This document shows positions 46,365 through 52,280 of a DNA stretch of 64,000 nucleotides, one piece after another. Origin of the DNA: Microbacterium maritypicum (GTDB lineage: Bacteria; Actinomycetota; Actinomycetes; Actinomycetales; Microbacteriaceae); assembly GCF_041529975.1 (NCBI RefSeq), contig NZ_CP168030.1, positions 1,984,001 to 2,048,000 of the forward strand. Reading direction: 5' to 3'. How positions within the stretch are numbered: position 1 is the first letter of the stretch; every line of letters starts with the position of its first letter. The notes beneath the pieces were generated by a model that worked only from the letters and a program-made list of their open reading frames with translations, was not told the origin of the DNA and ran no database searches. The position numbers and the translations under genes were made by a program.

Positions 46365-47057
46365 TCAGACGAAGAGGTTCGCCCGCTCGAGGTCTTCTGC
46401 GAAGTCGACCTCGACCGCGTACAGGTCAGAGACGTCCATCGGCTCGAGGAGGAGACCGTCCTCGGCGATGGCCAGCTCGAGACCGCGCTCGAAGTAGTCC
46501 TGATCCTCGACGCGCTGCAGCTGGCGCATGAACGCCTTCTTGTGCGCGGAGGAGATGTAGTTGATGCCCACGGCCTCACCCAGACCGCCCTTGACGGTCT
46601 TGGACAGCTCGTTGATGAAGCCCTCGGCGGTGACCGTGTACTTCACCTCTTCGTCGCTGACCTTGGAGGTGTTGACGGTGACGAACGACTGATCGCGCTC
46701 GATGAAGGCGGCGGCACGACCGAGGATCATCGGGTCGAACACCACGTCGCCGTTCATCCACAGCACGCCACCCTTGCCGGTCGCGCCGAGGGCGCGCAGC
46801 AGGCTCTTCGACGTATTGGTCTCGTCGTAGCGCTCGTTGTGGACGTAGTTGACGGCGGGGAAGGCGTCGATGATGGTCTCGGCGCGATAGCCGACCACTG
46901 TGGTGATGCGCGCGTCCGAACCGAAGGCGGCGCGGATGTTGTCGTGCTGCTGGCCCATGATCGTGCGGCCGTCGCTCAGTTCGGTGAGCGGCTTCGGCAG
47001 CGCTCGGCCGAGGCGCGAGCCCATGCCGGCGGCGAGGATGACGGTCTGAAGAGTCAC
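46365..47057 (-). CDS. Sugar/choline-phosphate nucleotidyltransferase-like protein
   Basis: A protein of 230 aa of the GT-A-like nucleotidyltransferase fold. The N-terminal VILAAGMGSRLGRALPKPLTEL holds the NTP-binding loop, and WMNGDVVFDP gives the metal Asp. Size and the late DVSDLYAVEVDFAEDLERAN suggest the phosphocholine cytidylyltransferase/LicC-like group, which makes CDP-choline or similar activated alcohols, rather than full-length sugar pyrophosphorylases. The start is GTG 47057, 5 nt after AGGAG, so this gene has a normal leader. It is divergent from the ABC exporter genes. Confidence 0.82.
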   Translation of the reverse strand: MTLQTVILAAGMGSRLGRALPKPLTELSDGRTIMGQQHDNIRAAFGSDARITTVVGYRAETIIDAFPAVNYVHNERYDETNTSKSLLRALGATGKGGVLWMNGDVVFDPMILGRAAAFIERDQSFVTVNTSKVSDEEVKYTVTAEGFINELSKTVKGGLGEAVGINYISSAHKKAFMRQLQRVEDQDYFERGLELAIAEDGLLLEPMDVSDLYAVEVDFAEDLERANLFV

Positions 47058-47292
47058 GAGTGCTCCTAAAGGAAGTTGTGTTCACGGTCGATTCACCGAC
47101 CAGACACTTCGTCGTGCCGAGTTCATGGTAGCGAGGCAGCCTGGGAAGCCCCGGGTCGGGGAGCCTCCCGTTGTCATTTCGTGATCGAGTACACACCGGA
47201 CGCACAGGCTCGCCCTCCGGGCCCATTGTGTCGGATCTGAGGGTTCGTCGGTGAATGTTGCGCGGCGGCCTTGGCATGCGGCTCCCCATTGA
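47058..47292. other. Divergent intergenic region, nucleotidyltransferase/ABC exporter
   Basis: About 235 bp with no gene that I can support. It holds the AGGAG site of the minus-strand gene at its left end and several short GC-rich inverted repeats (for example around 47140-47165), but no clear -35/-10 pair for the minus-strand gene. Confidence 0.5.
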
Positions 47293-47298
47293 TACCGT
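47293..47298 (+). promoter_or_regulatory. -10 element of leaderless ABC ATPase gene
   Basis: TACCGT 6 nt before the GTG start at 47305. Confidence 0.55.
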
Positions 47299-47304
47299 AG
47301 GACG

Positions 47305-49104
47305 GTGACTTCCTCCCCTGACGACCGCGCCGCCCAGGTGGACGAGACCGAGACCGCGCCGCCGAAGGCATCGACGAAGCCTGTGGCGAAGACGACTGCC
47401 GCGAAAACGACGCCCGCGAAGACCGCTGCTGCGAAGTCGACGGCTGCGAAGACCGCTGCTGCGAAGTCGACCGCTGCGAAGACCGCTGCTGCGAAGTCGA
47501 CCGCTGCGAAGACCGCTGCTGCGAAGTCGACTGCTTCCAAATCGACCGCCGCGAAGACCACTGCCGCGAAGAAGCCCGCCGGGAATCGCGCTCCGGCGAA
47601 ACCTGCCGCCTCGAAGATGGCTCCTGCCAAGAGGCCCGCCGCCACGACGACGGCGAGATCGGCTGCAGAGCAGGCGGCACCGACCGCTGAGGTCGTCGTG
47701 GAGCCTCTGAAGAACGCCATGCTCGATCGATCCGCGTCGAACGCCGCTCCGAAGCGCACGTCTGCGACGGCCCGCACGGCCGCGGCGAAGAACACGGCCG
47801 CACGTGCCGCGGCGACGAAGCCCGCCGCGGGGACGACGGCATCGGCGAAGTCCGCGGCAGCGAAGACCGCCGCAGCGAAGACCGCCGCAGCCAAGACCGC
47901 CGCAGCGAAGACGGCGGCGGCCAAGACTGCGGCCGCGAAGACCACGGCCCGGTCGACGACCGCGAAGACGGCGGCAGCGAAGACGGCGGCAGCGAAGACG
48001 GCGGCGGCGAAGGCTGCCGCGGAGAAGGCTGCCGCTGCCGCCGCGGAGGCCGAGACGGTTGCCGCCACCGCAACGCCCGTCGTCGAGCCGGCGCCGGCTG
48101 GCGACCAGACGGCTCCCGTCGAGTCCGCTTCGGCGATCGAACCCGCCCCCGCATCCGAGGAACCGGTGCGCGGTGAGGTAGAGGCACCCGCGGTGACGGC
48201 GGCAGACGACGTCGCTGTACCGACCGAGGTCGAGGTCGAGGTCGAGTCGGAGCGCGAAGCGACGTCGGTCGAGGTCGTCGAAGCCGTGGTCGACTCCGAC
48301 GACGCGGCCTCCGACGCGGTCGGCGCAGCCGACAGCACGTCCGACGGCGAGGCGATCAGCATCCGCGGTCTCGTGAAGCAGTTCGGCGACAATCGTGCCG
48401 TCGCCGGAATCGACCTGACAGTCCCGGCCGGGTCGTTCTACGGCGTCGTCGGCCCCAATGGCGCCGGTAAGACCACCACGCTCTCCATCGTCGCCGGTCT
48501 GCTGCGCGCCGATGAGGGCAGCGTCGTGATCTGCGGAATCGATCAGGCGGTGCAGCCGCAGGCGGCGAAGCGAATGATGGGCGTGCTGCCCGACCGGCTG
48601 CGCACGTTCGACCGGCTCACCGGCCGCCAGCTCCTCTACTACTACGGGCTTCTGCGCGGGCTCACGGCCGATGTCATCGAGAAGCGTGCGGCTGACCTCG
48701 CTCGTGCCTTCGATCTCGGCGACGCGCTCAGCCGAGTGGTCTCGGACTATTCGGCTGGCATGACGAAGAAGATCATGCTCGCGGGGGCCATGATCCATTC
48801 GCCGCGCGTCCTCGTGCTCGACGAGCCGTTCGAATCGGTCGATCCGGTCTCGTCCGCGGTCATCCTCGACATCCTGCGCGCCTACGTCTCACACGGCGGC
48901 ACCGTCATCCTCTCCAGCCACGGCATGGACCTGGTCGAGCGCGTCTGCTCGCGTGTGGCCATCATCGTCAACGGTGAGGTGCTCGCAGAAGGAACGATCG
49001 ACGAGGTGCGCGCAGGTCAGACCCTCGAAGCGCGCTTCGTAGAGCTCGCCGGATCCAGTGGAGAGGTGGAGGGGCTCGAGTGGCTGCACACGTTCTCCGA
49101 CTGA
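47305..49104 (+). CDS. ABC ATPase with a long histone H1-like Lys/Ala-rich N-terminal extension
   Basis: A protein of 599 aa. Residues ~20-255 are low-complexity Lys/Ala/Thr/Pro repeats (units such as TAAAKS and AAAKT), like the tails of histone H1 or mycobacterial HupB. Residues ~256-350 are the opposite, acidic and Val/Glu-rich. The ABC domain begins at ~351: Walker A GPNGAGKTT (~383-391), signature YSAGMTKK (~482), Walker B LVLDEP (~505) and the switch His in SSHGMD. The signature is of the drug/ABC-2 exporter type. The next gene, its membrane partner, overlaps by 25 nt. GTG 47305 follows a -10 element by 6 nt. The frame is intact across the junction, so this is a real fusion, not a chance read-through. 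Confidence 0.88.
   Translation: MTSSPDDRAAQVDETETAPPKASTKPVAKTTAAKTTPAKTAAAKSTAAKTAAAKSTAAKTAAAKSTAAKTAAAKSTASKSTAAKTTAAKKPAGNRAPAKPAASKMAPAKRPAATTTARSAAEQAAPTAEVVVEPLKNAMLDRSASNAAPKRTSATARTAAAKNTAARAAATKPAAGTTASAKSAAAKTAAAKTAAAKTAAAKTAAAKTAAAKTTARSTTAKTAAAKTAAAKTAAAKAAAEKAAAAAAEAETVAATATPVVEPAPAGDQTAPVESASAIEPAPASEEPVRGEVEAPAVTAADDVAVPTEVEVEVESEREATSVEVVEAVVDSDDAASDAVGAADSTSDGEAISIRGLVKQFGDNRAVAGIDLTVPAGSFYGVVGPNGAGKTTTLSIVAGLLRADEGSVVICGIDQAVQPQAAKRMMGVLPDRLRTFDRLTGRQLLYYYGLLRGLTADVIEKRAADLARAFDLGDALSRVVSDYSAGMTKKIMLAGAMIHSPRVLVLDEPFESVDPVSSAVILDILRAYVSHGGTVILSSHGMDLVERVCSRVAIIVNGEVLAEGTIDEVRAGQTLEARFVELAGSSGEVEGLEWLHTFSD
47416..47535 (+). repeat. Tandem 30-bp coding repeats (Lys/Ala-rich block 1)
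   Basis: Three nearly identical 30-bp units at 47431-47460, 47461-47490 and 47491-47520 with half units on both sides, encoding AKSTAAKTAA. The second and third are identical and the first differs at one base, pointing to recent expansion. Confidence 0.85.
47857..48015 (+). repeat. Tandem 15-bp coding repeats (Lys/Ala-rich block 2)
   Basis: About ten 15-bp units encoding AAAKT, interrupted once at 47945-47960 by ARSTTAK codons. Units differ mostly at third positions (GCC/GCG/GCA), so this block is older than block 1. Confidence 0.8.
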
Positions 49105-50645
49105 GAGTCGCGCTCCTCTTCGGGGCGCTGCGCAGCGATCGTCGGGTTCGGATGCTCGTGATGCTCGCAGCGGTCGTCGCCGTCACGGTCATCGTCTGCC
49201 TCGCGATCTTCAGCCTTGCCGATGCTCCTGTTCCCGTCGCCCGCGCGGTCACGGTGCTCGGCGGGGCCGCCCTGCTCGTCGGCTTCCTCGTGGGCCCGAT
49301 CCTCGTCGGCGCGGTCGACCAGCTGGATCCCCGTCGGTTCGCGGTCTTCGGCGTGGACGAACGCCAGATGCCCTGGGTGCTCACGCTGGCGGCCTTCGTC
49401 AGTGTGCCCAGCCTGGCGCTGCTCGCCGTCTACATCAGCGTCTGCATCGTCGCGGTCCAGGCGGGAACGCCGTGGCCGCTCGCCATCCTGATGACGCTCC
49501 TCGGCGTCGTGACGACCGTGCTCGTCTCCCGGATCGGTATGGCGGTCAACGCCCTGCTGCTCCCCGAGCGTCGCTCGCGCGAGCTCACCGCGCTGTTCGC
49601 GCTCGCGCTGCTGGTGATCGCGTTCCCCGTCGCGGTGTTCCTCGGGTCCCTGCGCTGGGACGGTCTCGTCCCCGACTCTCTGGCGACGCTGTCGACGGTG
49701 CTCGGGTTCAGTCCGTTCGCCGCGGCGCCTGCCTTCCTCTTCTCGTCCGCTGCAGGAGGGACGGCATCGGCGTGGGTGAGCGGCATCGTGGCGGTCCTCA
49801 CCGTCGGCCTCCTGTGGGTCGCCTGGTCGTGGCTCGTGCGTCGCCTGCTCACGACGACCGAGCGCCCCGTCACCTCGCGAGAGCGCACCGGGCTCGGTTG
49901 GTTCGGTCTCCTGCCGTCCAACGCGTTCGGCGCGATCGCCGCCCGCAGTCTCGTGTACTGGCTCCGGGATCGCCGGTACATCATGAACATCATCGTCGTG
50001 CCGGTCGCCGGGGTGCTGACGGTGCTTCCTCTCATCGTCGCGGGCGTGCCCGTCGAGGTCGCCGCCCTGGTGCCCGTCCCGGTGATGGCGCTCTTCTTCG
50101 GCTGGCTGCCGCACAACGACGTCGCCTACGACTCGACGGCTCTGTGGACCCACGTGGCGAGCGGGGTGCGCGGGCTTCCCGATCGCCTCGGTCGCCTGGT
50201 TCCGGTTCTGCTGGTGGCTGTTCCCGTCCTCGCGATCGCCACGCCGCTGTCGCTCCTCTTCATCGGCGACTGGAGCCTCCTGCTGCCGCTCGGGGGGCTT
50301 GCGGCGAGTCTGCTGTTCTCGGCGCTCGGCATCTCGAGCATCGTCTCGGTCGTGGCCCCGTACGCGGTCTCCCGGCCCGGTGACAGCCCTTTCCAGCAGC
50401 CGCAGCGGCCCAGCTCGCGAGGCACGTGCGGCCCGGCGGCCGCTTTCCTCGGAGCGATCGTGGTCAGCATCCCGACCGCCTGGCTGTTCGCGGCCACGGT
50501 CCTCGAGGGGTCGGCCTATGCGCCGGCGACGTTCTGGGTCGGGCTCCTCGTCGGGCTCACCGTGCTGGCAGCGGGAGCGGTCATCGGCGGCCGCATCTTC
50601 GAGCGCAGCGGCGAGAGGCTGATGGAGTTCGTCGAGACCGCGTGA
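49080..50645 (+). CDS. Multi-spanning ABC exporter membrane protein
   Basis: A protein of 521 aa with about 12 hydrophobic segments and large loops near residues 255-300 and 415-445. It starts with GTG 49080 inside the ATPase gene (25-nt overlap), so the two are coupled and should form one transporter. Length and layout resemble the actinobacterial ABC-2-like double-unit permeases (two groups of six helices). No substrate-specific motif is visible. A loop reading SRPGDSPFQQPQRPSSRGTC separates the last helices. Together with its ATPase it is more likely an exporter than an importer, since no binding protein is encoded. Confidence 0.82.
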   Translation: MAAHVLRLRVALLFGALRSDRRVRMLVMLAAVVAVTVIVCLAIFSLADAPVPVARAVTVLGGAALLVGFLVGPILVGAVDQLDPRRFAVFGVDERQMPWVLTLAAFVSVPSLALLAVYISVCIVAVQAGTPWPLAILMTLLGVVTTVLVSRIGMAVNALLLPERRSRELTALFALALLVIAFPVAVFLGSLRWDGLVPDSLATLSTVLGFSPFAAAPAFLFSSAAGGTASAWVSGIVAVLTVGLLWVAWSWLVRRLLTTTERPVTSRERTGLGWFGLLPSNAFGAIAARSLVYWLRDRRYIMNIIVVPVAGVLTVLPLIVAGVPVEVAALVPVPVMALFFGWLPHNDVAYDSTALWTHVASGVRGLPDRLGRLVPVLLVAVPVLAIATPLSLLFIGDWSLLLPLGGLAASLLFSALGISSIVSVVAPYAVSRPGDSPFQQPQRPSSRGTCGPAAAFLGAIVVSIPTAWLFAATVLEGSAYAPATFWVGLLVGLTVLAAGAVIGGRIFERSGERLMEFVETA

Positions 50646-50673
50646 CGACCGCCCGCGGCGTCTTCGACGCCGC

Positions 50674-50679
50674 TAGACT
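50674..50679 (+). promoter_or_regulatory. -10 element of leaderless DUF3039 gene
   Basis: TAGACT 6 nt before ATG 50686. Confidence 0.6.
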
Positions 50680-50685
50680 CTCGGG

Positions 50686-50952
50686 ATGAGTACTCCGCTG
50701 GACAGCCCCGATCAGGGCGGCGTGGCAACGCTTGATCGCGAACTGGAAGAGCTTCTCCGCGAGGAGAATCTCGAGCCGGGCGACCACGAGCGCTTCTCGC
50801 ACTACGTGAAGAAGGACAAGATCCTCGAGTCCGCGATCACCGGGAAACCGGTGCGGGCACTGTGCGGCAAGAAGTGGACGCCGGGTCGCGACCCGGAGAA
50901 GTTCCCGATCTGCCCCACGTGCAAGGAGATCTACGAGTCGATGATCGGCTGA
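50686..50952 (+). CDS. DUF3039 small zinc-ribbon-like protein
   Basis: A protein of 88 aa. The C-terminal half, ALCGKKWTPGRDPEKFPICPTCKEIY, carries Cys at three positions (C, then C-x2-C) together with HYVKKDK upstream, a likely single zinc site. It matches DUF3039, a small conserved actinobacterial family of unknown function. The N-terminal 35 residues are acidic (ELEELLREENLEPGDHERF). It is monocistronic with a leaderless start and converges on pncB with 2 nt between stops. Confidence 0.88.
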   Translation: MSTPLDSPDQGGVATLDRELEELLREENLEPGDHERFSHYVKKDKILESAITGKPVRALCGKKWTPGRDPEKFPICPTCKEIYESMIG

Positions 50953-50954
50953 CG

Positions 50955-52280
50955 TCAGTCGGCTTCGACGTACACGGTGGGAATCGCCGGGTCGGACTTG
51001 CTGAGCGCGAGAGCGCGCACCGGCAGTTCCTCGCGCACGCGCAGGTGGTGCGCTCGCGCGGCCGCCGTCCCCTCCGCGCCCTCGTGGGCGGTGTCGATGT
51101 CGCCGGCCTCGACGAAGGTCACCTGAAGCGCACGGCCGTCGGGGTGCTCGTCGGGCGTGTCCAGTTCCTCGAAGCCGTCGGAGACGACGACGGTCTCTGC
51201 GGTCGCGACGCCGTCGACCACGGTGCGGAACGCCGCCTTGCGGCCGCCGTACGAGGCCTTGTCGGCAGACGCCTTCGCCACCCCGATCCACGACCCGTCG
51301 GCATCCTGCCGTGCGACGAGCTTGTAGACCATGCTCGCCGTGGGGTATCCGGAGCCGGTGACCACGGATGTGCCGACACCGTAGGCATCGACCGGTGATG
51401 CGGCGAGAGCCGCGATGGCGTACTCGTCGAGGTCGCTGGTCACGGTGATGCGTGTGTGGGCGGCACCGAGCTCGTCGAGCTGTGCGCGCACATCCGCGGC
51501 GACGATCGGAAGGTCGCCGGAGTCGATGCGCACACCGCCGAGACGGGGGCCGGCGACGCGGATCGCCGTCTCGACGCCGGTGCGGATGTCGTACGTGTCG
51601 ACGAGCAGCGTGGTGTCGGCGCCCATGCTCGCCACCTGGGCGCGGAACGCCTCCTCCTCGGTGTCGTGCAGCAGCGTCCACGAGTGGGCGGCCGTGCCCA
51701 TCGTGGGAATGCCCCAGCTCCGCCCGGCTTCGAGGTTGCTCGTCGCGCCGAACCCCGCGATGTAGGCGGCGCGGGCTGCGGCCACTGCTGAGCGTTCGGC
51801 CGCACGTCGCGAACCCATCTCCGCCAGCGGACGCTCGCCCGCCGCGATGCTCATCCGCGCGGCGGCGGTCGCGACTGCTGAGTCGTGGTTGAGCACGCTG
51901 AGCGCCAGCGTCTCCAGGACCACCGCGTCGGCGAACGTCCCCTCGACGGTGAGGATGGGGGAGCCGGGGAAGTACAGTTCACCCTCGCGGTAACCGCGGA
52001 TCGATCCGGTGAACCGGTAGTCCTCGAGGTACTTCAGCGACTCGGCGTCCACGACCTGCGCGTCACGCAGGAAGCGCAGCTCCTCCTCACCGAAGCGGAA
52101 CTCGCGCAGCAGCCCGAGAAGGCGACCGGTGCCGGCCACCACGCCGAACCGGCGACCGCCGGACAAGCGGCGGGAGAACAGTTCGAAGACGCTGGGACGG
52201 AAGGCCGTCCCGTCCCGGAGGGAAGCGGCGAGCATCGTCAGCTCGTAGCGGTCGGTGAGCAGCGCCGTCGACGTGGTCAT
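50955..52280 (-). CDS. pncB: Nicotinate phosphoribosyltransferase
   Basis: A protein of 441 aa that makes nicotinate mononucleotide from nicotinate and PRPP in NAD salvage. N-terminal [18 protein letters not shown], the FEL(F)SRRL motif, [13 protein letters not shown], and the barrel block [21 protein letters not shown] (residues ~245-265) are all typical. The start is ATG 52280, 6 nt after TAAGCT, a -10 element that lies inside an inverted repeat. It is divergent from murI with 63 bp between start codons. Confidence 0.94.

Follow-up and report, generated by a model that had tools for sequence, protein, structure and literature searches.

Why should the ATPase of an ABC exporter begin with a long tail of lysine- and alanine-rich repeats resembling those of histone H1, followed by an acidic segment? 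This question is raised by a gene of Microbacterium maritypicum, which we analysed in a window of 64,000 nt (positions 1984001-2048000 on one 3.9-Mb contig; coordinates below refer to the window unless a contig or locus is named). Translation of the open reading frames confirmed what the sequence-only reading of this DNA had claimed, namely that a single frame joins the Lys/Ala tail, the acidic segment and a complete ABC domain: the frame at 47305-49104 (+) is GTG-initiated, runs without interruption and encodes 599 residues (Table 1). The closest named database relatives belong to Microbacterium, several of them to M. oxydans. The same reading had described a basic tail of about 235 residues; the basic repeats are present, but they form two tracts split by a hydrophobic island that contains AEVVVEPLKNAM. 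Net charges are +17 in the first tract (K19 R3 D3 E2), +18 in the second (K15 R4 E1) and −23 in the acidic segment (K0 R2 D8 E17). Within residues 1-245, the by far commonest spacing from one lysine to the next is 5 residues (24 intervals), and at the DNA level tandem 15/30-bp repeats are located at 47386-47572 and 47845-48012. A search of the 3.9-Mb genome with the exact DNA pattern for AK[ST]AAAK[ST]A, in which Ser was allowed as TCN only, gave seven overlapping matches, all inside the ATPase gene, and none on the other strand. A long open reading frame on the opposite strand (46576-48798) is, in our reading, a mechanical consequence of the tail repeats. The tail is probably disordered, judging from its composition and from a poor structure model (mean pLDDT 54.4, with parts of the ATPase domain low too), in which the acidic segment has mostly low pLDDT and a helix is predicted with low confidence at residues 200-252.

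Table 1 Features of the tailed ATPase locus, in window coordinates
Feature	Position	Strand	Details
Extended −10 box, predicted leaderless promoter	47289..47298	+	TTGATACCGT, 6 nt before GTG
Basic tract 1	47305..47649	+	residues 1-115, Lys/Ala/Thr repeats, 15/30-bp DNA repeats
Short hydrophobic island, non-basic	47650..47730	+	residues 116-142, AEVVVEPL motif
Basic tract 2	47731..48033	+	residues 143-243, AAAKT repeats
Acidic Val/Glu/Pro-rich segment	48034..48339	+	residues 244-345
ABC ATPase domain and stop codon	48352..49104	+	residues 350-599
Permease, 521 aa	49080..50645	+	25-nt overlap with ATPase gene
DUF3039 small protein, usual third gene	50686..50952	+	PF11238, 109.4 bits

The domain that follows the tail is a regular ABC transporter ATPase. 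It matches PF00005 with 83.8 bits against a cut-off of 25 and carries Walker A at residue 383, a SAGM-type signature at 483, Walker B at 502 and the switch histidine (LSSHG) at 536; the core residues of the catalytic motifs are invariant across 40 aligned sequences, the window's protein included. Its best NCBIfam match is the DrrA-type family TIGR01188 (198.3 bits for the full length, 202 for the domain alone), below the curated cut-off of 312.45 for that subfamily. Scores were likewise too low for the ribosome-associated ATPase RbbA (NF033858, 136.2 bits against 1050) and for the histone H1-like family HC2 (PF07382, 21.7 bits against a gathering score of 40). Of the histone H1-like tail proposed for this ATPase, the in-frame fusion has been retained, but not membership of HC2. 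A Pfam scan of the whole ATPase protein at E up to 0.1 detected none of the FHA families, and the protein was not classed with the FHA-ABC exporters of the Rv1747 type, as no FHA domain lies N-terminal to the ATPase.

Is the tail translated at all? For comparison, we assembled 96 Microbacteriaceae loci (30 from one search and 66 from further searches) and a named set, 80 loci whose genomes are named, of which 79 contain the ATPase (the stretch fetched for L172 lacks it); the two sets partly overlap, with five identical tails in common. In 85 of the 96 loci, an in-frame start codon is preceded at 6-7 nt by a TGnTAnnnT box, which occurred at none of 580 later in-frame starts of these loci; in the named set it was found in 74 of 79 loci and at none of 711 internal in-frame starts. 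Among the 11 family loci lacking the full box, four have a TAnnnT box without TG (L047, L051, L068, L086), three have a frame that continues past the end of the retrieved sequence or contig (L025, L026, L042), and four showed no box before a start codon (L037, L065, L066, L105). Such a box has a counterpart in M. tuberculosis, for which PMC3898074 describes leaderless mRNAs as common and reports that 73% of primary start sites have a TANNNT box, centred 7-12 bp upstream, with only 7% of those boxes carrying a TGN extension. A sigma-70 consensus promoter with −35 and −10 elements was not found at 47000-51000, a search that is silent on promoters consisting of a −10 element only. The tail frame remains open in divergent orthologues. 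In eight close pairs, which are not independent of each other as three species groups are involved, tail pN/pS was 0.32-0.75 and thus below 1 in every pair, while a +1-frame control gave 0.73-1.05 and was higher in all eight; these pairs were obtained after lowering the cut-off on ABC nucleotide identity from 0.93 or more, which had given two pairs, to 0.89. Since the ATPase domains of the same pairs showed values of 0.009-0.09, constraint on the tail is weak.

An untranslated tail with an internal start just before the ATPase domain could have explained how database relatives are recorded: by a pattern test, 67 of the 120 listed have the conserved start, and the remaining 53 have an annotated or truncated sequence that opens within the tail. 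These short starts were presumably chosen by software: the first residue of P0036 (357 aa), for instance, corresponds to a Met inside P0047 (635 aa), a nearly identical protein, and according to PMC9581028 gene-start disagreements in Actinobacteria genomes average about 10% of genes. The public record P0243 comprises 250 aa against 419 aa from the leaderless start of L036:2500-3756, and P0254 comprises 322 aa against 863 aa from the leaderless start of L032, each on what is seemingly the same contig; a start-calling fault is likely for both tailed ATPases. The observation that the sequence-only reading had itself named as damaging, a conserved start near residue 345, was looked for and did not appear. 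Within the 180 nt that precede the ABC domain, an in-frame start with a Shine-Dalgarno-like motif was found in 33 of 154 loci, compared to 32 of 154 in the +1 frame, so no in-frame excess marks a start just before the domain. Together with the coding-type pN/pS, these counts render a noncoding or internally started tail highly improbable. As the leaderless-start box is found only at residue 1 and is absent from later in-frame starts, the tail is almost certainly translated.

How widespread is the tail? Among 32 Microbacterium loci with a located start, the extension has a median length of 304 residues (range 10-459), and among 53 loci of other genera the median is 236 (range 3-719). At least 100 residues were counted in 72 of these 85 loci; the tail is nearly lost in five (3, 10, 32, 34 and 48 residues) and hence dispensable in some species. 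In the named set, the median is 345.5 (range 90-571), with at least 100 residues in 73 of 74 loci. Genus labels are those of the search tool, and L036, counted under other genera, seems to be filed publicly as Microbacterium; the named relatives of its ATPase domain alone include Leifsonia, Mycetocola, Plantibacter, Cryobacterium, Naasia and Humibacter. Outside the family the picture differs. Of 31 loci from other families of the order, 27 have a boxed start, and the leaders behind these 27 starts are at most 73 residues long, have a mean Lys fraction of 0.001 and contain no 50-residue window above +1. Untailed paralogues showed a boxed start in only 6 of 18 loci, with leaders of at most 37 residues, so that a start was located in 33 of the 49 pooled loci. 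When several boxed starts were present, the one nearest to the domain was used, which biases this count towards short leaders (an alternative start of L221 gives 81 residues).

A tree was built from ATPase and permease together (79 sequences, 776 columns). In it, 34 members of the tailed lineage, taken from the 96 family loci and including short-tailed ones, form one clade, supported by 0.998 in the unrooted FastTree tree and by 100/100 in IQ-TREE. The re-rooted tree prints 0.154 for this clade, which we take to be a label moved by re-rooting, given the unrooted value and the IQ-TREE support. Hence, the tail is carried by a family-specific gene lineage. At least six changes across a tail threshold of 100 residues occurred on the 34 tips, a sample enriched for short tails. 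Untailed paralogues fall into two groups among the other families. One untailed paralogous ATPase-permease pair (G000:C1:833298-834035, L102) is 56% identical in the ATPase domain and places outside the tailed clade. L215-L217, which were fetched as paralogues and whose permease is hardly similar, were left out of both tree and leader count; L212, L221, L225 and L227 entered the leader count and were left out of the tree. The sequence-only reading had considered the architecture as a candidate for something undescribed. A complete ABC ATPase with basic tail and acidic segment is indeed what we found, but it is widespread across Microbacteriaceae and no peculiarity of one gene. The suggestion of that reading to look for conservation among Microbacteriaceae orthologues has a divided answer: start signature and charge order are conserved, whereas length and sequence evolve fast.

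The tail sits on a locus of almost constant gene order. The membrane partner that the sequence-only reading had described as overlapping the 3' end of the ATPase gene is present, its frame opening within that gene, and the same 25-nt overlap was found in 62 of 64 family loci having a permease (66 family loci examined). A DUF3039-like sequence lies downstream in 63 of these 64 loci and in 68 of 68 named loci with full flanks, and the order ATPase, permease, DUF3039 is nearly fixed across family loci. Upstream, a sequence like the divergent gene at 46365-47057 (−), which we take to be nucleotidyltransferase-like, was detected in 61 of 66 family loci and in 56 of the 68 named ones. The permease matched no Pfam family at E up to 0.1, and its profile had no sequence match to any PDB chain at E up to 1. 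In a predicted model, its C-terminal half has an ABC-2/type V fold resembling CcmB, ABCG and NosY among the fold matches listed, so that the pair, with this predicted permease fold beside the ATPase gene, is classed as a type V (ABC-2) exporter. Hydropathy points to some 12 helices, and comparing the two halves gave a local score of 66, but an internal duplication was rejected, as the profile comparison of the halves was empty (hhalign probability 0.1, E-value 0.49). We know of no comparable tail on Rv1218c. Among the listed fold matches over both halves of the modelled permease is the mycobacterial efflux pump Rv1217c-Rv1218c (PDB 8k1m-8k1p), to which the likeness over the full length is predicted with high rmsd. 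Two loci stand out: L084, a Microbacterium locus with a 10-residue tail, is the sole permease-bearing family locus without a detected downstream DUF3039, and in L079 the ATPase tail is retained while the permease frame breaks shortly after its start and continues in unrelated sequence.

We then ask what is conserved in a tail whose letters hardly align. Tails of at least 30 residues were scored for charge blocks, defined as 50-residue windows of +6 or more (basic) or −6 or less (acidic). Both blocks are present in 27 of 31 Microbacterium tails (shuffle mean 4.9) and in 28 of 52 tails of other genera (shuffle mean 7.0), and in 53 of the 55 tails having both, the basic block precedes the acidic one (exceptions: L034, L041). 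In the named set, 70 of 74 tails have both blocks, with the basic block first in all 70 (shuffle mean 20.1, maximum 27). For sequence charge decoration (SCD), 92 of 100 distinct Microbacterium tails and 32 of 49 others gave z < −3 against shuffles. As the loci are related by descent, these block and charge counts are not independent events. The pattern has exceptions: four of the 31 Microbacterium tails and four of the 74 named-set tails have an acidic block only, and among the 52 other-genus tails 14 have only a basic block, three only an acidic block and seven neither, so that the acidic block is absent in 21 and the basic block in 10. Lysine outnumbers arginine in Microbacterium tails (551:354) in contrast to the ATPase domains (207:598), while tails of other genera contain a slight excess of arginine (727:771; ATPase domains 446:917). 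A balance between the two kinds of charge was considered and not found in Microbacterium, where basic and acidic residue counts are uncorrelated (rho −0.01, 100 distinct tails); in other genera they correlate (rho 0.73), both tracking length.

Linear motifs are confined to parts of the family, and we stress that both patterns below were written after the sequences had been seen. Of 102 distinct Microbacterium tails, 62 contain the island class [DEG]-Phi-[VI]-Phi-[EP]-P (shuffle mean 1.1, maximum 5), compared with none of 49 tails of other genera. The pattern [IVL]PP[RKM]PPLP is present in 39 of 156 distinct tails, and no linear motif shared by the whole family was found among the distinct tails. 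Long tails of other genera carry a Trp-containing island before the acidic part (VWSKRWPF in L032 and L109, VFSKKWPF in L056), which is possibly a membrane- or partner-binding peptide. As far as the sequences tell, it is the charge pattern that is conserved in the tail, and not the letters beyond subclade motifs.

What could such a tail be good for? The computation establishes a family-wide, fast-evolving, charge-segregated extension on a three-gene locus; this architecture, unlike any mechanism, is well supported. At a probability of roughly 40%, we tentatively favour an electrostatic arm by which type V (ABC-2) exporters are clustered or tethered. The Lys/Arg blocks would bind anionic surfaces, such as the inner membrane leaflet, the acidic blocks of neighbouring arms or other polyanions, in a sequence-nonspecific, electrostatic manner, and thereby cluster exporters or hold them at particular places. 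Where present, the acidic block beside the ATPase domain would shield the catalytic site from the basic block and also offer a partner in trans. Since exporters of this type have two ATPase subunits, each transporter would display two cytoplasmic arms. The start signature at residue 1, the prevalence of tails of at least 100 residues, the basic-first order and charge segregation, the lysine excess of Microbacterium tails over their ATPase domains and the restriction of the tailed lineage to one clade, with short and nearly Lys-free leaders elsewhere, all fit an electrostatic arm. It is less easily reconciled with the tails that lack one block, the acidic-only tails of Microbacterium and the named set, the slight arginine excess in other genera, the uncorrelated charges in Microbacterium, the weak constraint and the near-losses. 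A more far-reaching version, which we consider doubtful, is that the paired arms form a block-polyampholyte scaffold, family-wide and FHA-free, that would collect exporters into patches resembling condensates, or else anchor the membrane to polysomes or the nucleoid.

The strongest rival to the electrostatic arm is a largely neutral expansion, which we regard as possible though rather unlikely: GC-rich 15-bp repeats would have expanded by slippage, the charge order would be inherited instead of selected, and the passenger would be tolerated since the N-terminus of the ATPase points away from the working surfaces. The tandem DNA repeats, the spread of extension lengths from 3 to 719 residues, the repeated crossings of the 100-residue threshold in a sample enriched for short tails and the tail pN/pS are what such a process might leave behind, and short Ala/Pro-rich leaders already exist outside the family. 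Against a mere passenger stand the tails of at least 100 residues in 72 of 85 loci, the basic-then-acidic order that persists despite poor alignment of the tails and pN/pS values that, in each of the eight albeit non-independent pairs, stay under both 1 and the +1-frame control. Composition also bears on the matter: linker and flanking regions of ABC transporters are described in PMC13257379 as more disordered than the domains, with GC content shaping the linkers. In our view, such a bias should favour Arg and not the Lys of Microbacterium tails, whose enrichment would therefore oppose the expected GC pressure. Alternatively, the basic tracts might act as a polyanion tether, of the kind already suggested by the sequence-only reading, that links the exporter to the nucleoid or to ribosomes by binding DNA, rRNA or polyphosphate; this appears unlikely to us. 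According to the review PMC7398561, Ku and HupB depend on Lys-rich tails for their interaction with DNA, and topoisomerase I owes its processivity to lysine repeats; the two best of three sub-threshold HC2 matches in the genome are topoisomerase I- and trigger factor-like C-terminal tails, and L036 has a tail of the KKPAAKKPAAK type. However, the ATPase gene is not among these genome matches and stayed below the HC2 gathering score when scanned directly, its tail has mostly single lysines every five residues instead of KK pairs and therefore a lower charge density, and the acidic block could compete for the basic tracts. The genome's KKAPAKKAP C-terminal tails lie at G000:C1:1664905 (L118) and 2260795 (L119), on proteins read as topoisomerase I and trigger factor. 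The sequence-only reading had further offered a fold-back switch; in the form considered here, the acidic stretch would fold onto the basic tracts until a polyanion or phosphorylation opens the pair and alters ATPase activity. Strong charge segregation, conserved charge order and the correlated counts of other genera, although both track length, would suit such a switch; it is weakened by the single-block tails of other genera (14 and 3 of 52) and by the charge balance that is not conserved in Microbacterium, and we consider it improbable.

Returning to the electrostatic arm, its nearest functional precedent is Rv1747 of M. tuberculosis, another ABC exporter from an actinobacterium in which a disordered segment on the cytoplasmic side precedes the ATPase domain. 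The N-terminal module of Rv1747 condenses in vitro, enhanced by phosphorylation and, as suggested in PMC9312465, through nonspecific electrostatics; the protein forms membrane nanoclusters, but the same source leaves the link to condensation open for the full-length protein. In Rv1747, the linker lies between two FHA domains and a transmembrane domain is part of the same chain, in contrast to the tailed ATPase with its terminal Lys/Ala tail, separate permease and lack of an FHA match. The tails of topoisomerase I, HupB/HupS and Ku share Lys-rich repeats resembling histone H1 (PMC7398561), but they are C-terminal and sit on DNA-binding proteins, whereas the exporter tail is N-terminal, sparser in Lys and followed by an acidic block. 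In the open-licence PMC literature, we found neither a Lys-rich or disordered tail on an ABC ATPase nor a block polyampholyte precedent, which is weak evidence of absence.

Tails are usually judged by alignment; here, charge order outlasts the alignment of letters. Our counts also indicate an annotation fault, given the many listed relatives that start, or are cut, inside the tail. The system is a membrane exporter found in a common environmental genus; its many natural length variants, several near-losses among them, provide a ready test of whether the charge pattern alone is selected and whether it organises transporters. If the scaffold interpretation were true, the tail would be a charge-coded organiser on an ABC transporter without an FHA domain.
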